Below are positions 52,057 to 64,000 of a stretch of 64,000 bases of DNA, one piece after another (the stretch's first letter is position 1; each line of letters starts with the position of its first letter). The stretch is from assembly GCA_021234155.1 (NCBI GenBank), contig JAJEKV010000030.1, positions 17,350,003 to 17,414,002 of the forward strand, given 5' to 3'. The DNA comes from Isoetes taiwanensis. Taxonomy: Eukaryota > Streptophyta > Lycopodiopsida > Isoetales > Isoetaceae. The position numbers and the translations under genes are program-made. Below the pieces are notes generated by a model. The model was not told the DNA's origin. It was given only the letters and a program-made list of their open reading frames with translations, and searched no databases.

Positions 52057-52502
52057 TGTTAAAATTGGTCAGGTTATATTTACTCTATGGTTCAATGGTT
52101 TTACATTCAATGGTCCTAGGTTCAGATTTTAAAGGGATCGAAGTTTGGAAACTGCCCTTTTGGGGTCGAAACTTGGCCAAATCATCTGAAGCCAGGCAGC
52201 AGGAACGGATCTCGGTGCCTTCACCGATGGATAGATCATTTAACATGATCGGAATTGGTCTGGCATAGCATTGGGTGTGCCGGATCCTATAAAACAGAAG
52301 GAGATCGTAACTGGCATTGTGCTAATAATGTGTTAATGTGCTACAGTGATCATTTCGATCCCATAGCTACAGTAATTTCGTATGATTTTGCAATGGTTCT
52401 ATAGTTTATAATCTATTCCATTATTTCCTAGACATTAGACACTTGTGATAATGTGTTCTCATAGGAAATAAGACTAACCAGTTAATCACCTTTGTGACTT
52501 CA
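52057..52502 (+). repeat. Copia 5' LTR (446 bp)
   Basis: Begins TGTTAAAATTGGTCAGG and ends GTGACTTCA (TG...CA). The first 277 bp recur at 56746-57022. A TATAAAA-like motif (CCTATAAAACAG near 52287) is a plausible promoter element. Confidence 0.92.
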
Positions 52503-52504
52503 TC

Positions 52505-52516
52505 TGGTATCAGAGC
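52505..52516 (+). promoter_or_regulatory. Primer-binding site, initiator tRNA-Met type
   Basis: TGGTATCAGAGC, two bases after the 5' LTR, is complementary to the 3' end of plant initiator tRNA-Met and serves as the site of minus-strand DNA priming. Confidence 0.92.
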
Positions 52517-52538
52517 AGGTTGGAATCAGAAGTCAATT

Positions 52539-55500
52539 ATGTCTAGCAGACTTGGTGCTGCACTTCTAAGTGCTGTTGATGTGTTCAATGGAGGAGCCGG
52601 ATTTCGGATCTGGAAAGAAAAGATTGAGGAAATATTACAAGTAGAAGGGCTTTGGGAAATTGTTACAGGAAATGATCAATTTCTAGAAGTGCAGGCAGTC
52701 AATACTAGCAAGGCTAAGACTTATGCTAGTATAGCAGGAGGTGGTGGTGGGAGCTCTAGTCCCATTAAAGATACCAGTGCAGCTGGTGGTGCTAGTTCAA
52801 GCACGGAGGTAACAAGTCCAGTCTTTGATGGTAAACTGGATATTAAAGCTTTGGAAGCAAGGGCAATAATCACAAGCAAAGTCAGCAGCAACATCTTGCT
52901 TAAGTTAAGGGGAATGAATCCCAAAGAAATGTGGCATTATATGATATCAACTTATCAACGGAAGACTTCTTCTCAACTGGATGTCTTGGATAAAGAGCTG
53001 AGAAGGTTAAAGTTTCAGGAGAAAGAGGATGTCAAAGACTTCTTTGGGAAGTTTGACAACATCATTGCTGATATGGAGGCTGCAGGAGTTCCAATCACAA
53101 AAGAATTTCAAATCCTATCCTTATCTAGAGCCTTCTCTAAATACAAACAGCTGTCAACATTGATTAGAAACGTGGCAAAGAGCAAGGAAGAAGCTGAAAG
53201 TATGATCAAAACAGAATTAGAGCAGAACTCAGTTATCAATGATGATGAAGATGGTGAACAACCAGAGATCTTATATGCTTCAAACAACAAAGGACGAGGC
53301 ACGACAGGTAAAATAGGACCCTGTTACCTATGCAATGCCTATGGCCATTTGAAAAGCAACTGTCCTAAAGCAAGTAAAGCCAATAAATGCTTTAATTGTG
53401 AAGGCTTTGGGCACATTGCCATTAACTGTTCCAATCCCAAGGATTATGCAAAAGGGAAGGATTTTTCTGGCAAAGGCACTGCTGGTCGAGAAAGGGGTAA
53501 AGGAGGTGGCAGAGGTAGAGGGAAAGCTACTGCCATAAACATTACACGTGAGACAAATGAAGAAGGAGAACAAAATGAAGAAGCAGAGGTAAGTATGCAC
53601 AATACCCTGTCCATTTCAGAAAGCAAATCTAAACCTACTGATGAGATGTTCATATTAGATAGTGGAGCTGAGAGAAGCGTAATTAAGGACTGTTCTAGAT
53701 TCAAAGGGAAGACCATCAAGAGTTCAAGCTTTGTGCAATTAGGAGATGGCAAATTGAAGGAAGTGGACAAGACTGGATGGCTAGAATTATTAGATCTTGG
53801 AGGGAATCCAGTAACTCTGGAAAATGTATTATGTGTTCCTACCATTGTTAAAAATCTGATTTCAGTAACACAGTTGGTAGACCTTGGGTACAAGGTAGTT
53901 TTTGAAAAACATTATTGTAAAGTTCTTATGAATAATGAAGTTAAGTTTTTTGCAAAGCGTATTGGGAAGTTATTTGGCTTTCATAATGATATTTCAGCAA
54001 TGATTAATGCAGTAACTTTACCAACCTGTAGAATGTGGCATGAAAGACTTGGACACATGCACATCAACAATTTGAATTTCATGATTAAAAAGGGGCTGAT
54101 TCTAACTTCTGAAAGCAAAGCAGTACATCTGAATTGCATTGGATGCATGAAAGGGAAGCAAAATAGATTACCGTTCCCAAAAAAGGCCAAAAGGGCAAAA
54201 GAAATATTGGAACTAGTGCATAGCAACCTGTGTGGTCCTCTTAACATTACCAGCATTCATGGAAGGAGATACTTTATCACTTTTACAGATGATTTCACAA
54301 GAAAAACAAAATGCTACGCTCTCAGAACAAAGGACAAAGCCTTTGAGGCGTTCAAGTTATATCAAGCTGAAGCAGAAAGACAAACAGGTAAAAAACTTAA
54401 ATGCTTGCAAACTGACAAGGGAGGTGAATTTATGTCTGACAGGTTCAACAGATATTGCTTTCAACTTGGAATTAGAAGGCAACTCACGTGCTCACACACT
54501 CCACAGCAAAATGGAGTTGCGGAGCGTAAGAATCGCTCAATTCTAAATGCTGTCAGGGCTATGCTGAAACATGCAAATTTACCAAACTATCTGTGGGAGG
54601 AGGCTGTTCAAACAGCAGTACAAATTCAAAATAGACTACCCACAAGAAGCTTAGATGGAAAAATTCCAGATGACATATGGTATGGAGTTAAACCTTCTTA
54701 TGATATGTTTAAAGTTTATGGTTGTCTTGTATATGTTCACATCCCAGAAGAAAACAGAAAAAAGCTTGATGATAGGTCATACATGTGTTATCTCATTGGG
54801 TATGACGATCAGTCAAAGGGATATCTGCTCTATGAACCCTTACAAAAGAGGATTATAGTTAGTAGAGATGTGATTTTTCATGAAGATATCAGTTACAAGG
54901 ATAGAGACAAGAGTACAATAGTGCAGCTTGCTAAAATAACAGAAAAATCAGCAAATAAACTAGTTATGGTAGATCTGGACGATGACAGTTCAGATGAACA
55001 TGAAAAAGACAGTAATGAGCATGAGTTTGACTCTGAAAAAAACAATTACTCTGAGGCTATTACTGCACCAGCAGTGAACAATGATGAAGAAGAACCTATT
55101 GTACAAAAGATTCCAAAGAAGAGAAGATCAGAGGCTCAAAAGTTACAAGAAGAGCTGAACTTTGACACAAATAATTATGGGAGAAAAGAAACGGGCAGAA
55201 GCAAAAGAATTAATGAAGATGTGGACATCTTTAATATTATGGCTATGCTTGAAGCAGAAATTCCAGAATCTTACGAGGAAGCCATAAATAGTGAACACTC
55301 AAATGAGTGGAAGCATGCCATGCAAGATGAGATGATGTCATTTAAAATGAATGACACGTATGATTTGGTGGAAAAACCTCAAGGCAAAAATGTCATTGAT
55401 AACAAATGGATCTACAAACTTAAAACAAGCCCTGATGGTAAGACTCAGAAATTTAAAGCTAGATTAGTACCGAAGGGGTTTTCTCAGAAAAAGGGGTTAG

Positions 55501-56183
55501 ATTTTGATGAGACTTTCTCACCAATTGTAAAACTGTCAAGCATTCGCATACTTTTAGCATATGCAAATGCTAAAGATCTAGAGTTACATCATTTGGATGT
55601 GACTACAGCATTCTTGAATGCTAAATTAGAAGAAGAAGTATATATGAAACAGGCCCCAGGATTTGAAGAAGGAAATAATTTAGTATGGAAACTCAAAAGA
55701 GCGGTTTATGGCTTGAAACAAGCACCACGCCAATGGTACACTTGCATGGATCATCATTTGAAAGACAATGGGTTTTATAAGCTGGAAAGCGAAGGCAATT
55801 TATATGTGCTCAAACAAGGAGAAAATTTTTGCATAATAGGCCTATATGTGGACGATTGCATAATGGCAGCAAATGATCTCGGAATTCTGAACACCTGCAA
55901 GGATATTCTAAGATCTAAATTCAAAATGACGGACCTGGGGCAACTAAAGAAGTTTCTTGGAATTGAGGTCACTAGAAACAGGACAAACAAAACTTTATCA
56001 CTAACTCAAACTTCAAATATTCAGAATATGCTCAGAAGATTTGGCATGGACGAGTGTAAAGTTGCAGATACTCCTCTAGTTCCTGGGCACAAAATTTCAG
56101 GAGCCATGTGTCCAAGTAATGAAAGTGAAAGAAATGAGATGGAAAGGGTACCCTATCGAAAGGGACGGCACAAGAAGGTTTAA
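52539..56183 (+). CDS. Copia Gag-Pol polyprotein, truncated in RT
   Basis: 1214 codons from ATG 52539. In order: copia Gag (about 1-240); two CCHC zinc knuckles near residues 261 and 283 (CYLCNAYGHLKSNC and CFNCEGFGHIAINC); aspartic protease with LDSGAE near 373; pre-integrase HHCC region with MWHERLGHMH near 498; integrase with catalytic D in FTDDF (about 583), D in LQTDKGGEF (about 623) and E in QQNGVAERKN (about 658); the GYLLYEP-type motif; reverse transcriptase from about 950 with YVDDCI near 1102. The frame leaves the conserved RT sequence at VPYRK (near 56155) and stops at TAA. RNase H continues in another frame, so roughly the last 70-80 residues between RT and RNase H are lost. An earlier start (non-ATG) is possible but unlikely. 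Confidence 0.93.
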   Translation: MSSRLGAALLSAVDVFNGGAGFRIWKEKIEEILQVEGLWEIVTGNDQFLEVQAVNTSKAKTYASIAGGGGGSSSPIKDTSAAGGASSSTEVTSPVFDGKLDIKALEARAIITSKVSSNILLKLRGMNPKEMWHYMISTYQRKTSSQLDVLDKELRRLKFQEKEDVKDFFGKFDNIIADMEAAGVPITKEFQILSLSRAFSKYKQLSTLIRNVAKSKEEAESMIKTELEQNSVINDDEDGEQPEILYASNNKGRGTTGKIGPCYLCNAYGHLKSNCPKASKANKCFNCEGFGHIAINCSNPKDYAKGKDFSGKGTAGRERGKGGGRGRGKATAINITRETNEEGEQNEEAEVSMHNTLSISESKSKPTDEMFILDSGAERSVIKDCSRFKGKTIKSSSFVQLGDGKLKEVDKTGWLELLDLGGNPVTLENVLCVPTIVKNLISVTQLVDLGYKVVFEKHYCKVLMNNEVKFFAKRIGKLFGFHNDISAMINAVTLPTCRMWHERLGHMHINNLNFMIKKGLILTSESKAVHLNCIGCMKGKQNRLPFPKKAKRAKEILELVHSNLCGPLNITSIHGRRYFITFTDDFTRKTKCYALRTKDKAFEAFKLYQAEAERQTGKKLKCLQTDKGGEFMSDRFNRYCFQLGIRRQLTCSHTPQQNGVAERKNRSILNAVRAMLKHANLPNYLWEEAVQTAVQIQNRLPTRSLDGKIPDDIWYGVKPSYDMFKVYGCLVYVHIPEENRKKLDDRSYMCYLIGYDDQSKGYLLYEPLQKRIIVSRDVIFHEDISYKDRDKSTIVQLAKITEKSANKLVMVDLDDDSSDEHEKDSNEHEFDSEKNNYSEAITAPAVNNDEEEPIVQKIPKKRRSEAQKLQEELNFDTNNYGRKETGRSKRINEDVDIFNIMAMLEAEIPESYEEAINSEHSNEWKHAMQDEMMSFKMNDTYDLVEKPQGKNVIDNKWIYKLKTSPDGKTQKFKARLVPKGFSQKKGLDFDETFSPIVKLSSIRILLAYANAKDLELHHLDVTTAFLNAKLEEEVYMKQAPGFEEGNNLVWKLKRAVYGLKQAPRQWYTCMDHHLKDNGFYKLESEGNLYVLKQGENFCIIGLYVDDCIMAANDLGILNTCKDILRSKFKMTDLGQLKKFLGIEVTRNRTNKTLSLTQTSNIQNMLRRFGMDECKVADTPLVPGHKISGAMCPSNESERNEMERVPYRKGRHKKV

Positions 56184-56737
56184 CTTATACAAATGATAAT
56201 CTCATACTCAAAGCATATTGTGATGCGGATTGGGCATCAGATCTGGATCATAGGAAATCCACTTCAGGTTTCTCAATTATATTAGGAGGTGCAGCAGTAT
56301 CTTGGAAGTCTAAGAAACAATCAAGCATTGCAATGTCCTCAGCAGAGGCAGAATATGCTGCCACAACCTTGGCTGCGAAAGAAATAATTTGGTCCAGGAG
56401 ATTGTTAGACGAACTTGGAATAAAACAGGTTGATCCAACAATATTACTGTGTGACAGTCTTAGTTGCATAGCAATTACAAAGAATCCGGTTCTGCACCAA
56501 AGAACTAAGCATATAGAATTACATATGCACTTTATCAGAGAAATGGTGGCAAAACAGTATATTTCTATTCAGTATATCAAAACAAATGATCAAGCAGCTG
56601 ATATCTTTACAAAAGCCTTGTCACAGGTGAAGCTGAATGAGTTTAAGTCAGTACTTGGTATAAGTAATAGAACAGAAGATACAGGTTCAAATTCTGATAG
56701 AAAACTTTGTTGCAAGATTACAGAAGATATAACCTGA
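56159..56737 (+). pseudogene. Copia RNase H domain, out of frame after an internal deletion
   Basis: In frame 2 relative to the gag-pol ORF: YCDADWASDLDHRKSTSG, SSAEAEYAATTLAAKEIIW and KHIELHMHFIREM, the conserved copia RNase H blocks with catalytic D in CDADWA and E in SAEAEYA. TGA at 56735-56737 is the natural end of Pol. The usual VGSLMY...RYLKGT segment expected just before it is missing, placing the deletion near 56155-56160. Confidence 0.9.
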
Positions 56738-57023: not shown

Positions 57024-58645
57024 TGTGACGTTCCAAGTATTTATACGGTATATGCATAAATACATTGACACGTCACCCAGTACATATATGCCACCATGGG
57101 GTATGGTAGCCTAGGGGGTTGACCTAAAAGGGATTTAATTAGCTATGTTAATTAAACTATTAAGGATAATAACCTATGATTAAGGAAATTAATAATTAAG
57201 AAGGATAATTAAACCAATTATGGTTTGGGAAGGCGCCACCTGGCCAAACTCGATTGGCCAGCATGGGGACTACTATTTGGATCCAATTAGGTGGATCACC
57301 ACCCCCGTATCAGCCAGAATCGAACCAGTTGAGCGCCCAAGGAGCAGTTGAGCGCCCAAGCACTGTTACTGACCTCACCAAAATCACTGAACAACCACTA
57401 GCTGTTGCTGCCGCCCTACCTACAGCACCATGAAAGCACCCCAGGATAACAGTTCCAGCCGAAACACGGGTTAGTAGCAGATTAGCTTGTAAATTGTAGG
57501 ATTGCACTTCAGTACTCTCTTTGCTGATCGCTTTGTTGAGATTAACCCTTCTCTGGTAAGTAGGATTACATTTCAATTATGAATGGTGCTCTGTTAAGGA
57601 ATTGGTTGATGTATCTATGAAGTATTTCGGTAGCTTCCATTTAACAGGGGCTTAAAGGGGGGTAGAGATCTCTGAGCTCATGTATGATAGTATGCTCCTA
57701 GATAGAGTCCTGTAATATTCCCATTAGATGCGGCCTGTGTGCAAGAGACCACCGGGTCGTAGACGCTATGGTCTGGCTTAGCACCAGAAAAGGGACACAG
57801 TGGTGAAGTGGGGGGTGGGGTCTTGCACGAACATAAAAGGCTCCTGAGACTCCTACAGTAGGCTAGGCCTGATAGCCGGTCACGTAGAGGGCCGGGTATG
57901 GGTCTGACACTCCCTGGGTGTAGAGATGTGATCCGTATGGAGCATCTTGCACTTTGAGTAGATTTAGGGTGAGTAAGTTGGGTACGGATGCGGGGGTCGC
58001 TGATGCGGCACGTATTCTCTAGCTCACCCATGGAACCACTGTGATCCTGGAAGGGGACGCTTCCCTGACCAGCCTCATCGGACCGGGGCGTCATGAACCC
58101 TGGAGTAGACTCACAAAGGGTGATACCTTGAGTCTGCATATCCGGAAGGCTATAGCGAAGCCATAGCGTGGATCGACCCATCTGCAAAGTGTGCACAGGA
58201 GCGGCGGATGGAGTGGACAACCCTAGCCGATGTTCTATGCCAGCCAACGCCATGCCAAGACTCGGTCTGCTGATCTCTTGAGACCCAGCCGTCAGTCGAT
58301 TCTCACTGGAGTCTGAACTGGGGTAGAACCTGGGGTTTGGGGTGTTTTCTTAGTTTTAGATGCATCTTCTTTGCCGATGGTATTTGGATGGATGCGCCAC
58401 CCTTCGTGGTGGTTATTTATATGTGATTTATGTTGTGTGCTAACCCTTGTATTCATGCTTCCGCGACGTAGGAGCCCATCGAAGGCGTGGGCCGAATGAC
58501 ACCTCCGTGCCCTTCACTCGAGCATCTCTACGTAGATGGCCCGGGTCAGACGGAGGGCCCTGCTCATGGCGAGATGGTCGCCATGGGAGGGGAAAGTCCC
58601 CGTATGTATACGGCCGGGGGTCGTATATATTCAGGGAGCGTCACA
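57024..58645 (+). repeat. Gypsy 5' LTR (1622 bp)
   Basis: Starts TGTGACG and ends CGTCACA, an exact 7-base inverted terminal repeat, directly followed by a primer-binding site. GC content rises after about 57650. The open frames inside (57310-57576 and 57678-58253 on minus, 58447-58737 on plus) show no domains and are taken as chance frames. Only one LTR is in the window. Confidence 0.85.
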
Positions 58646-58646
58646 G

Positions 58647-58660
58647 TGGTATCAGAGCCG
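58647..58660 (+). promoter_or_regulatory. Gypsy primer-binding site
   Basis: TGGTATCAGAGCCG, one base after the LTR end, complementary to the 3' end of initiator tRNA-Met. Confidence 0.88.
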
Positions 58661-59318: not shown

Positions 59319-60578
59319 ATGGCCAACACTAAGAGTGCTCCGGACCCTACTACCCTCACCATAGCAGAGATTTATGCCTTGATCGCCCGGCACATGGCTA
59401 CTGACCCGGCCTTCATCGACATACTTCTGGACGAGTTGGTGAACCGGTTCGAGAACAATGATAGGATCCCCTATCCTATTTACCACTTCTCGGAGCCATT
59501 CTTGATCCGACTGAACCTCCGCCAGCTTCCTTACACCATGGCCGAGCAACCTGACTTGGTCATGATGCTGATTAAGTTCTACCATCCCGAATGTGAATGA
59601 CACACCGAGGAGGGGGACATAAGGGACGAGGCCGACCACATCAGAAACTTGGCCAGGGAGGATGATCGCCGAGAAATAGAACGAGCCGATATGGCAGCTC
59701 GGGGTAGGGAATATCGGTACCTGGGGGATGGCGTTGCCGTTATAGATGGCAGGGCCATCGAGATTCCCCCATACCGATGGGATGAGGATTCCCGCAGCTT
59801 CATATGGGGGCAGATCCCTGATATCAGCATTGATTATCTAATAACCATCCAGATTGATATGAGTCAGCGGCGTAACCGGTACCACGCTGAACTTCTTCGC
59901 CGCAGCGTAGCACAACATTACGCTCAGGTTGAAGAAGACCTTAGGAGATCCCGGGAGTTCCGGGAAGAGCAGGAGAGGATCCAACGGGAGAAGGAGGAAA
60001 CGGCTCGGCAAGACCAGCCGAACCCACAGGGGGAAGGGGCATCTGGGAGTGGGCAGGGCCCAACCCCAACAGAGCATACGACGGTGAAACACCGGAGGAA
60101 GGCCGTCGCCCGGAAGTCCGGTAGTCAATACAAGGAAAAGTTAAAGACTGTCGGCGCTTTTGGCAAGAACGCGAGCTCCAGCCGGCGGCAGGAGCGGGTG
60201 GATGCGACCCGACCCCGTGTTGGGGCAAGACTATGCCTGCACCAAGGGGGCCGCCTCCTAACCCTGCTCCACAGAGGAAACCCCATCGGTACCGACCTGG
60301 CACTGTCGCCTTACGGGGAGATCCGTAAGTTTCAGAAGTCAACCCAACTTCTGATACGGAAGCTTCCCTTTCAGAGGTTGGTTCGGGAGATTGCCCAGGA
60401 GTTCAAGACCGACCTCCGCTTCCAGACTTTTGCCATTTTGGCACTCCAAGAGGCTGCGGAGGCTTATCTAGTGGCACTTTTTGGTGATGCCAACCTTTGC
60501 GCAATCCACGCAAAGAGGGTCACCATTATGCCTAAGGATTTAGCCCTCGCCCGCAGGATTCGGGGGGAGCATCCTTAG
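59319..60578 (+). CDS. Pre-gag ORF A: unknown N-terminal region fused to histone H3 domain
   Basis: ATG 59319 opens a frame that runs to TAG 60576-60578, broken by one TGA at 59598-59600. Residues 1-93 ([16 protein letters not shown]) are unknown. 59649 onward continues with an Arg/Glu-rich coiled-coil-like part ([19 protein letters not shown]) and a Gly/Gln/Pro-rich linker. A basic tail with ARKSG (60108-60119) recalls the ARKS motif of H3 tails. [13 protein letters not shown], identical to canonical H3, is encoded at 60278-60316 but in frame 2. A one-base excess in GGGG (60315-60318) returns to frame 0, giving [20 protein letters not shown], then [27 protein letters not shown] and [20 protein letters not shown] to the end RGEHP. 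The H3 part spans about 100 residues (H3 36-135), with canonical RKLPFQRL rather than CENP-A features. The annotated piece is therefore disrupted here; other copies may be intact. Confidence 0.85.
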
Positions 60579-60778: not shown

Positions 60779-62177
60779 ATGGCAGCCACCGACCTTCTTG
60801 CATGGTATCAAGACGGAGAGCATTGGGATCCGCAAGTGCCTTTGACCTGTTGCGGCCCTTGCTATGCCAGCGCCTAGACCTCATCACTAACATGCAGCGG
60901 CACCCAGATTATGCCGGGTTTTTAGACTTTTACATGGAGGAGATGCTTCCTTTGTGTATCCCTCTTGGGGATCCTCCTCAAAAGTATCTAGAACGGGAGG
61001 TAGTCCGGGATATGTTAGGGGGCGACACCCATGCGTATGATGTGCTGAAAGGAAAGCTCAGATGGGGCAAACACCTGCCCGTTGTGCAGCATCAGGGGCG
61101 ACAATATCTTGAGGTTGCCTTCGCCCTAGCCATCCTCATGGACCAATACGTCGAGGATGAAACTTTGCCTGTAGAGAAAGGCAAACTCCCTGAATCTTTC
61201 GAGGAGGGAGAAGATGAGCACATAGGTATGGGCGACTTCGCCCGTTGGAAGCAGTTAGCAGAGGAGATGCCACCACGCCGGGAACAAGCTGCACGCTTGT
61301 CAGGGCTGGACGCCCTTCCAGTTGTGTATCACCAAGGGCAAGAATATCTTCTCTTGGATGATATCATCTGGACCTATCACATGGTGGCCGGGTTTAAGCA
61401 CCGGCGTAAGGACCATGTGCTCTATGAGTTAGCGGAGTACGTATGGATGATTTAATCGACTTCGCTCCTATTGCGCTTCCCCCGGAGGTGCAGCAGTTAC
61501 TCCAGTTCCGACAGGACACCATAGAGCTAGCTGAGACTTTGCTACGGCTTCGGGAACTGGTGATGCAGGATCCGACCTCTCAGCCCTCGCCGGATGCCTT
61601 TACAGCTATGGGACCTCATGTTCCCAACATTAATATGGTTGAGATTCCCTCCGATTCGGATGAGGAAGGAGAGGATCTATACCATAATCCTGCTCATCTG
61701 AAGGAAGAGCAGCAATAACTCAAGGAAGAAGAAGTCCCTATGGACTTAGACAAGGAGGTGGCCACGTCAGAGACCCCGCAAGGCAAGGTATTGGGAAACC
61801 ACCTTACCCACTTCTTCTTATCAGCTTTTCGACAGGGGCAAGTTCTTTTTATAGCCCGAGATTTAGGGCCGGAGGCTGAAGCTTCATGGTGGACCCTCCG
61901 TGCTCTCTCCACATTGGCCGGGCACAAGAAGCTTCCCTATCGTACGTTTACTTATGTACTCGTGCGACGGGATCTTGCCCTGACGGCCTTGGGACAAGAC
62001 ATTGCACCCTGGATGAGCATGAAGCTCCTTACGGCAGCCCCATTGGCTGTTGCCTACCCGCCAGAGATTGCTTCCATTGCGGCTGCCACAGTAGACCCAG
62101 GGGTGACTCTACTACGACACCGACCGCTGCTACCACCTCCTCGGTCTACGAATGAAGAGGGAGGACCTAGCTCTTAA
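60779..62177 (+). CDS. Pre-gag ORF B, unknown retroelement protein (frameshifted)
   Basis: ATG 60779 gives MAATDLLAWYQDGEHWDPQ in frame 2. The coding sense then continues in frame 1 (60802-61455) with FDLLRPLLCQRLDL, FLDFYMEEMLPLCIP and LPVVQHQGRQYLEVAFALAI. A related motif, LPVVYHQGQEYLLLDDIIW, appears about 90 residues later, so there is an internal repeat. 61443-61718 and 61740-62177 follow in frame 0 with one TAA between (61716-61718): an acidic SDSDEEGEDLY stretch, then LTHFFLSAFRQGQVLF. These are probably parts of one protein of roughly 460 residues that has taken frameshifts and a stop. No known domain; distant similarity to 32112-32699. Function unknown. Confidence 0.6.
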
Positions 62178-62400
62178 ATAATTGTATTACGCACTTTGCA
62201 TTGCGTATAGTTGTAGAATTTTAGTCTGGCATTTTCTTAAACCATTTTATAATATGATATACCATCTTTTATCAATTGCGATTATTGTCTCAATGAATAC
62301 AATTAAGATTGTTCTCTTCCATGATGTGTTCTTCTATCTGTTACAGTTTAGGGCATAACGAAATTGTTCAATGTTCTATATTCATTTCTATCGTCTTACA
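62178..62400. other. Inter-ORF AT-rich region
   Basis: AT-rich trailer of ORF B. TTCATTTCTATCGTCTTACAG at 62380-62400 resembles a 3' splice site just before ORF C. Confidence 0.4.
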
Positions 62401-62859
62401 GAAGAAACACTCGAAGAATATGAGGAGAGGATTACCGATCTGATAAGGAGAGATGATCCAGGGCCGCCAGAATAGGATTATGGCCAAAGATATGGGGAGT
62501 ACCCGGAATGGGACGAAGGTTATGAGATAGAACCTGCACCACCAGGGGAGTCCTATGATCCAGCCAAGGGGATGGAGATAGTTAGCATTCTCAGGGAACG
62601 AACCTACGAGGACCTGAAACAAACTCTTCGCCGCACATGGGACTATTGGGACATGTCCAGGCACGAAGCTTTCGAGGATGTCAACGACCACCTGTGGCAA
62701 ATCTTCTATGCTTTAAGGAGGCTTTTCAATCTCCTTATTATTAGCCCAACGCTGGATTACCAACCTGTTATCGTTCAGGCCTGGGCACGTTACAAGCTCG
62801 TTAGGGCTGTACGTGAAAGTGTTCGCTACTCAATCCTCTACCCATTTGCGAACCCCTAG
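62401..62859 (+). CDS. Pre-gag ORF C, unknown retroelement protein
   Basis: Open frame from 62401 after an acceptor-like TTACAG, with one TAG at 62473-62475. It has no ATG near its start, which fits use as a spliced exon. The first part is acidic and Tyr/Pro-rich (EYPEWDEGYEIEPAPPGES); the second is helical with many aromatic residues (TLRRTWDYWDMSRHEAFED, LWQIFYALRRLFNLLI). From the ATG at 62572 an uninterrupted 95-codon frame runs to TAG 62857-62859. No domain is recognised. An AATAAAG lies about 110 bp downstream (near 62973). Confidence 0.5.
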
Positions 62860-63125
62860 GGCCTGGTCTTTTCAGTTTTGTTTTGTTGTTATGCTGTCTG
62901 TGAGTTAAACTTCAAGTCTCCGCTGTATCATGTTTGTTTCTGTATCATACTCTTGTATCAACTTTTGGCAGTAATAAAGTGTGGAACGTTAATGAAATAA
63001 TAGTTTTCTCTTGTAATAAGAATCTTTGCCACTATATTCTTTCTTGTATTCTCTTTCTCTACCCACTCCGCAATGACAATTTTGTGGGACTTTATGTTAC
63101 TATAATTCTGCTTATACTTTCATGT
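62860..63125. other. Inter-ORF region before gag
   Basis: T-rich trailer with CAGTAATAAAGTGTGG near 62970, a plausible polyadenylation signal. No coding potential is seen. Confidence 0.4.
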
Positions 63126-64000
63126 ATGCTCGATATAGACGGTGCACGCAACGCCGCCTGGCAGACGCCCTCCAATGCCAGTAGATTAACACCTGAACAG
63201 GAACTTATGCTAATGAAGAGGCAACTAGGCGAGTTGCAAGCTTATGTGCTGCATGCCAACCCACCACATCATACACCAGAAAACGGACCGGAGTTACCTT
63301 CGCAACCGCCAAGTCCGCCTGCACAGCAGCCATCTCCACCTGAAACCAGCCCTGTACCTGCACAAAGGAGGTCCCGTTCTAAACGTCGTCGCAGTTCCTC
63401 TAGGAATAGCGCCACCTCCTCACAATCAGCCACTTCTGTATCTTCTGAGTCGTCCGTATCAGCTGGTGACCATGCAAAGCGCCGGGATAAGGAATACCGC
63501 AAGACGGTTGATACAGCCATAACTAGTATATGGAAGAATAGGAAACTGGCCCAGTTTGATGGGAAATCTAGAGGCGCACTGAATGCAGAGTCCTGGTTGG
63601 ACAAAATGAAGGAGTTTGGGAAGTCCTATGGCATGACAGAAAAGGATACAGGAAAGGTTGCTACCACAAACCTTACAGGAGCTGCCCGTATTTGGTGGAA
63701 GGGCTATGCTAGAGTCAAGCATCTGGATAGAAGCAGGTGCAAGTTCAAAAAGTTTGCAAAAGCTTTTAAGTCGCATTATGTGCCTCGTGCGCACAAATGC
63801 CAACAAATTCAGACCTTCTACAGGCTAGAGCAGAAGGGTATGTCAGTCCAGGCCTACACTGATGAATTTATGCTTTGGTCAGACGTACCAGGTATGAATG
63901 AAAAGAGGGCAGTGGAGGGCTACATTGAAGGGTTGGCCCCATCAATCAAACGAATGGTTAAGGCCATAGACCCAAAATCAGTTGCGGAGGCTGAGGCTAA
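63126..64000 (+). CDS. Ty3/gypsy-type Gag (partial, open at window end)
   Basis: From ATG 63126 the frame is open for 291 codons to the window edge. The first ~120 residues are Pro/Ser/Arg-rich with a basic patch (RRSRSKRRRSSSR). From about residue 140 the retrotransposon Gag fold follows: LAQFDGKSRGALNAESWLDK, then TNLTGAARIWWKGYARV, FKKFAKAFKSHYVPRA and LEQKGMSVQAYTDEFMLW. These blocks (WL..., L.G.A..WW, F...F...Y.P, Q...SV..Y...F) are the signature of plant gypsy Gag, the structural shell protein that packages element RNA. No stop or shift is seen, in contrast to ORFs A-C. Zinc knuckle and Pol lie beyond the window. Confidence 0.88.
   Translation, partial: MLDIDGARNAAWQTPSNASRLTPEQELMLMKRQLGELQAYVLHANPPHHTPENGPELPSQPPSPPAQQPSPPETSPVPAQRRSRSKRRRSSSRNSATSSQSATSVSSESSVSAGDHAKRRDKEYRKTVDTAITSIWKNRKLAQFDGKSRGALNAESWLDKMKEFGKSYGMTEKDTGKVATTNLTGAARIWWKGYARVKHLDRSRCKFKKFAKAFKSHYVPRAHKCQQIQTFYRLEQKGMSVQAYTDEFMLWSDVPGMNEKRAVEGYIEGLAPSIKRMVKAIDPKSVAEAEA

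Follow-up and report, generated by a model that had tools for sequence, protein, structure and literature searches.

A long-tailed histone H3 kept by selection in an abundant Ty3/gypsy retrotransposon family of Isoetes taiwanensis suggests use of a captured histone on host chromatin

Results

The element copy in the window

The window (the whole 64,000-nucleotide stretch of Isoetes taiwanensis DNA under analysis) holds the features of a Ty3/gypsy element given in Table 1. The initial annotation had described a 1.6-kb LTR with a tRNA-Met primer site and a Gag reading frame downstream, and both are present: the LTR is followed at 58647 by the primer binding site (PBS) TGGTATCAGAGC, which we take to be of the initiator tRNA-Met type, and the capsid region beginning at about 63138 matches Pfam Ty3_capsid (E = 1.1e-14) and Retrotrans_gag (E = 2.7e-13). 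The middle part of the window LTR has diverged from the LTRs of two complete copies found elsewhere in the genome.

Table 1. Features of the element copy in the window (window coordinates)
Feature	Position	Strand	Remarks
5' LTR	57024..58645	+	1,622 bp, TGTGACG...CGTCACA, TG...CA ends; ends match LTRs of two complete copies
Primer binding site (PBS) TGGTATCAGAGC	58647..58658	+	Adjoins 5' LTR
ORF1 (H3 ORF), broken here	59319..60578	+	Open copies elsewhere in genome
Histone H3 core, alpha-N to alpha-3, C-terminus of ORF1	60278..60575	+	Pfam Histone; 38 other copies aligned with host H3
ORF B, second conserved pre-gag ORF, three frames here	60780..62177	+	Longer copies have ~440-470 residues
ORF D, third short pre-gag reading frame	62401..62859	+	Pyrimidine-rich stretch ahead of it ends in CAG
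gag-pol start	63138..64000	+	Pfam Ty3_capsid/Retrotrans_gag; extends past window, RT at C1035:17414937-17415509

The annotation also placed between these parts an ORF ending in near-canonical H3, and proposed a search against histone profiles. The similarity stands, with a Pfam Histone match at 59649-60575 (E = 3.8e-34), the peptide RKLPFQRL encoded at 60357-60380, and a second H3 segment of 13 residues at 60501-60539, but the open frame does not: a stop interrupts the 420-codon stretch at codon 94, and a 13-residue H3 segment at 60278-60316 lies in a frame different from that of the remaining H3 part. Because of this stop and frame change, we regard the window copy as decayed. Its 3' LTR was not found within the next 10 kb past the window.

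Upstream, at 52494-56737, lies a Ty1/copia element (RVT_2, E = 7.2e-76; copia gag; integrase) with an open frame of 1,229 codons, and TGGTATCAGAGC occurs with this element as well, at 52505.

Architecture and abundance of the element

The genome searched comprises 1,658,258,908 bases in 1,110 contigs. Two copies in it, on contigs C908 and C1034, are bounded by LTRs that are 96.5% and 93.7% identical, respectively, and by 5-bp target site duplications (TSDs; GTGGC and AAAGT); in both of these copies, the flanks of which were read, the PBS adjoins the 5' LTR and the purine tract AAGGAGGGGAGAA precedes the 3' LTR. The C908 copy reads, in order, LTR, ORF1 with H3 (485 codons from stop to stop), ORF B (470 codons), a short ORF D region, and gag-pol (1,385 codons), the Pfam matches running Ty3_capsid (8.4e-17), RVP_2 (0.00032), RVT_1 (7e-39), RT_RNaseH (4.6e-33), Integrase_H2C2 (2.7e-20), and rve (3.4e-7; at 30.9 bits, slightly below the cut-off of 32.6). 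The C1034 copy repeats this order, with ORF B broken and the pol region in several frames, and encodes a chromodomain at the integrase C-terminus (Pfam Chromo, 5.3e-9). By its LTRs, TSDs, PBS, polypurine tract, gag-PR-RT-RH-IN order, and chromodomain, the element is a Ty3/gypsy LTR retrotransposon of the chromovirus type.

Between the C908 and C1034 copies (L004/L005 and L002/L003), the LTRs and the part from ORF D to the 3' LTR are 86-92% identical, whereas ORF1 and ORF B yield a DNA match from the H3 core only (73%); this contrast reflects either fast evolution or the exchange of a pre-gag module between lineages.

The exact junction of LTR end and PBS occurs 2,366 times genome-wide and zero times in the backward control. 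For the first 20 junctions listed (taken in contig order, not as a random draw), we inspected the 3.2-3.3 kb that follow and found an H3 fold at 13 of the 20 and some part of ORF1 at 15, with no trace of ORF1 at the other 5 within that distance. H3 is therefore usual in this LTR family without being universal, and ORF1 may be dispensable or supplied in trans. Five of the junction loci (L064, L065, L069, L072, and L073) have no complete core and stand outside the pN/pS, residue, and tree tables. Another junction locus, L066, has the shared LTR end and PBS with gag ~750 bp after the junction, and ORF1 and ORF B were not found there, which makes it either a deletion derivative or an H3-less sister of the element; L098, likewise among the five junctions without ORF1, contains a gag fragment.

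These counts bear on the claim that H3 belongs to the element, for which many copies sharing LTR, H3 ORF, and gag had been expected and against which copies lacking H3 would speak. H3 sits between PBS and gag in the two LTR-bounded copies and follows the junction at 13 of 20 sampled sites, as expected; copies lacking it do exist, as a minority (5 of 20 junctions, one with gag close downstream). A single later insertion of H3 into one copy is rejected, since both complete copies carry it, as do 13 of the 20 junctions.

A genome search with the Histone profile scored 150 places of 8,705 first-look candidates (candidate numbers being rough); 15 of these match profile positions 2-122, as host H3 does, and the other 135 begin no earlier than position 4, their open frames reaching 494 codons. 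Host H3 genes were not mistaken for element copies: the 11 of the 15 best rows that were fetched are all canonical host H3 genes of 136 codons, and these loci were kept apart (the twelfth locus of that fetch, L051, is an element copy). Used as a genome query, the whole open ORF1 of one copy gave 96 matches, with 88 of 12,536 candidates scored. The H3 core lies within one uninterrupted frame of 396-494 codons in 36 other copies, which were selected for open frames and several of which have frames beginning past the expected start codon. General amplification of histones is rejected for H4, for which a control search with all 69 candidates scored returned 43 matches (16 full-length) and revealed no amplified family.

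ORF B, ORF D, and the start of gag

The initial annotation did not extend to the pre-gag regions at 60780-62177 and about 62401-62859, nor to the second deep clade of the element described below. ORF B (L004:2506-3834 in the C908 copy) was scored at 90 places genome-wide; it has no Pfam match, and its AF2 model is poor (mean pLDDT, 43.8). By eye, a hairpin-helix segment in ORF B (LP-V---G--YL----A) seems to occur twice. For ORF D, the best Pfam row (at 62572-62856) is not significant (E = 0.17).

Ahead of ORF D, at 62330-62405, the window has a pyrimidine-rich stretch ending in CAG, and at the start of gag, where no ATG was seen, a T-rich stretch ending in TAG (63100-63140). Gag may be made from spliced RNA; when this splice-like CAG/TAG pattern was checked, the window copy alone matched.

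The location of ORF1 ahead of gag, together with the basic regions that precede the core in its sequence, would suit a packaging protein, i.e., an H3-like protein that compacts element cDNA or RNA inside the particle. H3 without H4 does not wrap DNA, however, and this genome shows no amplification of H4; moreover, Gag has, by eye, a CCHC knuckle, the usual nucleic-acid binder. We therefore consider packaging improbable.

Identity of the C-terminal part of ORF1

Four ORF1 proteins match Pfam Histone at E values from 1.1e-22 to 2.7e-42, the latter in an intact clade I copy; among the four is a clade II copy at 1.9e-27 (the two clades are defined in the next section). In the AF2 model of ORF1, a block at about residues 10-235 has confidences of 60-91 and the H3 part is of low confidence; Foldseek returned no match for this model at E ≤ 0.001, and the best VIA-align Z score was 5.0, with no histone standing out, so that the histone call rests on sequence.

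When one clade II protein was compared with solved structures, the best 60 of its 174 matches were all labelled as H3. Host H3 genes are the closest relatives found for clade I, and solved H3 chains those found for clade II; both are canonical H3, in agreement with the capture of an H3 proposed at the outset. An origin from CENH3/CENP-A is rejected on the basis of these 60 structure matches and of the 86% median identity of clade I to host H3, within a comparison that covered solved structures and the host's H3 genes but not its CENH3.

We surveyed residues in 50 cores of clade I and 18 of clade II (complete in 18 of the 20 fetched clade II loci) at H3-H3 four-helix bundle and DNA-contact positions, the lists of which are textbook knowledge. 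At each of the eight bundle positions, both clades most often have the host residue, although R129 reaches just 44% in clade II, and by sequence the fold is of the H3 type. At the 13 DNA-contact positions, clade I has the host residue as the commonest at 12, K64R being the exception, and clade II at 8, with K64R again and four non-conservative changes (R63P, F84V, Q85T, and K122Q) that make ordinary nucleosome wrapping less likely for clade II. The retained H3-H3 interface residues and, in clade I, the DNA-contact residues are consistent with action on chromatin.

A canonical 1-36 tail with K4, K9, K27, and K36 is not present; in clade II, roughly the first 6-10 residues survive, and tail position 9 varies there (K, V, I, or L) more than the ARTKQ stretch does, many copies keeping K9. 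In the subfamily of the window copy, the tail before the core contains an ARKSG motif that recalls the K9/K27 context, although a match of 4-5 residues can arise by chance.

Two deep clades of ORF1

ORF1 falls into two deep clades, as follows.

(i) Clade I is the type of the window copy and the minority in the sample of 20 junctions (3 loci versus 12 of clade II). Its ORF1 consists of an N-terminal domain of ~230 residues, modelled with fair confidence, a low-confidence linker, and an H3 core with a median identity of 86% to host H3. Most clade I copies are without the H3 tail tip, but one subfamily (L038, L040, L054, and L055) starts with MARTKGTKS and one broken copy has MARTR.

(ii) Clade II was first encountered solely through the junction sample. 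Its ORF1 often begins with the tail tip MARTKQTARK, followed by ~320 mostly charged residues and then an H3 fold with a median identity of 55% to host H3 (18 complete cores). Thirteen of 20 fetched ORF1s start exactly with MARTKQTARK, four have a close variant, two lack the initial Met but otherwise share the stretch, and in one (L081) the tip was not found; of these copies, 12 were picked by a query itself starting with MARTKQTARK (10 of the 12 exact) and 8 by the core (3 of the 8 exact). At the 12 clade II junction loci, the start is MARTKQ in eight and MMRTKQ in one.

Codons for MARTKQTARK occur at 1,051 places genome-wide (control, 0) and those for MARTKQ[T/I] at 2,903 (backward control, 1), both counts including host H3 genes and perhaps other things. 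On contigs C1-C301, 13 of 58 MARTKQTARK sites lie within 1 kb of an exact junction.

ORF B is common to both clades (24.7% identity; E = 7e-7). In a tree of 77 rows and 84 columns, support is 100 for the clade II branch, 70 for clade I, and 0 for host H3; L077 and L091, which have damaged core ends, were dropped from the tree only and kept in the pairwise identity/dN and residue tables. With so few columns and no outgroup H3, the tree leaves one versus two captures undecided, but we prefer one capture because the LTR ends, the PBS, and ORF B are common to both clades. The simplest reading is that a whole H3 was captured once and that an insert then grew between its tail tip and core.

Selection on ORF1

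We computed pN/pS within three clade I subfamilies (22 of 25, 7 of 8, and 5 of 5 aligned copies, with L013, L014, L016, and L027 left out). Pooled ratios for the H3 core, the N-terminal domain, and the linker are, respectively, 0.065, 0.257, and 0.366 in subfamily 1 (22 copies, 231 pairs) and 0.032, 0.210, and 0.196 in subfamily 2 (7 copies, 21 pairs). Between clade I subfamilies, where synonymous sites are saturated in nearly all pairs, the core is at 0.09-0.15 and the remainder of ORF1 at 0.56-0.63. Clade I cores compared with host H3 have saturated synonymous sites in 549 of 550 pairs and a median dN of 0.124. The ratios for clade II are 0.13 (19 copies) or 0.18 (aligned set) for the tail tip, 0.19 for the core, 0.465 for most of the insert, and 0.363 for the stretch before the core, such that the constrained ends of clade II ORF1 are its two H3 ends.

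Most clade I copies entered the set as top hits of the histone profile that also had open frames, and picking copies in this way lowers pN; the choice of open frames lowers the ratios in all parts of ORF1 alike, and that of histone score additionally favors the core. In a check on this bias, other parts of the same ORF1s have ratios several-fold higher than the core. The H3 part is under strong purifying selection, and the initial expectation of a ratio below 1 is borne out in both clades (H3-core pN/pS of 0.03-0.15 in clade I and 0.19 in clade II).

The same ratios contradict passive transduplication in the sense of absence of selection. A host H3 copy carried along without function has a fungal precedent in hAT elements (PMC6710886), but in Isoetes, purifying selection is strong against a background of saturated synonymous sites, H3 occupies the same place in two deep clades, and the interface residues are kept. 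Of all readings, we hold this one the most improbable; the H3 part is, on these ratios, best described as an old, selected accessory gene and not as a passive insert.

Maintenance of the tail tip in clade II (pN/pS of 0.13-0.18 versus 0.465 for most of the insert, and the 2,903 MARTKQ[T/I] sites, host genes included) raises the prospect of a decoy, a protein that would remain soluble outside nucleosomes and sequester H4, H3 chaperones, or the proteins that read and write the H3 tail tip. The altered DNA-contact residues of clade II fit such a protein. In clade I, however, the tip is mostly gone and 12 of 13 DNA contacts persist, a pattern opposite to the one expected of a tail decoy, and we consider a decoy unlikely.

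Conservation of the H3 core while the N-terminal half varies could also point to a targeting factor, in which the ORF1 protein would use H3-H4 chaperones or nucleosomes as an address label and tether Gag or integrase to chromatin, together with the integrase chromodomain. That a chromodomain is encoded (Pfam Chromo, 5.3e-9) speaks for a targeting strategy in this lineage and also against the need for a second one, as targeting is already offered by that domain. We rank this reading above the decoy, as unlikely too.

Discussion

We are nearly certain that ORF1 of this abundant chromovirus-type Ty3/gypsy lineage is a captured H3 of canonical type, enlarged by a long tail insertion and kept by selection as an accessory gene. 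What it does is a more tentative matter. The mechanism that we rank ahead of targeting and decoy, and hold possible but somewhat short of even odds, is an element-made H3 variant that would pair with host H4 and alter chromatin marking at element copies. For this best explanation, identity and mechanism taken together, we estimate a probability of roughly 0.6.

In the proposed mechanism, the ORF1 protein would pair with host H4 and enter chromatin, or the histone-chaperone route, as an H3 variant made by the element; its tail would lack or displace the usual K9/K27/K36 context, and chromatin at new or expressed element copies would then resist heterochromatin marking. Translation of ORF1, pairing with H4, entry into nucleosomes, and an anti-silencing effect are all steps that we infer from sequence. 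The likeliest role of the protein would be joining or mimicking nucleosomal H3 to lower silencing, and the anatomy of the two clades suggests that clade I would suit nucleosome entry and clade II would better suit tail mimicry. Some features count against the favored mechanism: a tail of ~320 residues could block deposition, the altered DNA contacts of clade II, the 5 of 20 junctions lacking ORF1, and the low confidence of the AF2 model in the H3 part weigh against it, and the ARKSG motif of the window subfamily, which could be methylated like K9, together with the K9 kept in many clade II copies, argues against a simple mark-free tail.

Transposon silencing acts through marks on the H3 tail, and an element that brings its own H3 would strike silencing at its substrate, not at an enzyme. 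The two clades, in which opposite portions of the protein have survived a divergence that saturates synonymous sites, would also serve as a natural experiment on the parts of H3 that cannot be spared, and they make testable the question of whether a selfish histone can enter nucleosomes and change what is silenced. Our results suggest that a very abundant family of jumping genes may use a stolen histone on host chromatin, its own long-tailed H3 being kept intact by selection. More speculatively still than the mechanism above, an element H3 with a rebuilt tail might for a very long time have replaced or imitated host H3 and rewritten silencing marks, one capture having led to two solutions (a kept core with a new tail domain in clade I, a kept tip with a drifting core in clade II) and to thousands of selfish H3 variants in a chromatin arms race.

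Comparison with known systems

The nearest known parallel among plant retrotransposons is the set of Ty3/gypsy elements of the orchid Phalaenopsis that carry an ORF for an AlkB-type m6A demethylase (PMC9289625). These are, like the Isoetes element, plant gypsy LTR retrotransposons whose accessory ORF derives from the host and is believed to act against host control, but the accessory protein there is an RNA demethylase and here a histone. The screen in that study covered 121 angiosperm genomes and reported 15 unusual domains; its main text uses "histone" twice, never as a found domain (PMC9289625). Extra ORFs besides gag-pol occur in other plant LTR retrotransposons; those discussed in the review text consulted are env-like and antisense ORFs, and "histone" is absent from that text (PMC7264820).

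Histones carried by other parasites are known from viruses and DNA transposons. The H4 of bracoviruses is incorporated into the nucleosomes of the host and changes gene expression (PMC5423620; PMC9145170), and single viral H3s are known, e.g., in the Manila clam xenomavirus (PMC9145170). As in the Isoetes element, these are parasite-encoded core histones with a fold near that of the host and a longer N-terminal tail (PMC5423620; PMC9145170); unlike it, they belong to viruses and not to retroelements, and two of their tail extensions measure 38 and 35 residues, compared with ~320 here (PMC9145170). The text of that review mentions neither retrotransposon, retrovirus, nor LTR (PMC9145170). With bracovirus H4, entry into nucleosomes by a long-tailed, parasite-encoded histone has a precedent (PMC5423620; PMC9145170). 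Fungal hAT elements resemble the Isoetes element in that a transposable element copied and amplified histone H3, but they are DNA transposons, and no fused tail or deep clades are described in the parts of the report covered (PMC6710886). In P. fijiensis and relatives, every hAT-H3 copy except the original has been inactivated by RIP, and in P. tritici-repentis, where the event appeared recent, 23 of 26 appeared functional (PMC6710886).

A targeted search of the open-access literature, with bioRxiv preprints and most subscription papers outside its scope, found no report of a histone encoded by a retroelement. The capture of a host gene by a gypsy element, the capture of H3 by fungal DNA transposons, and single viral histones are already known from the sources consulted (PMC9289625; PMC6710886; PMC9145170), and the LTR retrotransposon chassis is of a known kind; the accessory H3 gene and the two opposite evolutionary paths that it has taken appear to be new to us.
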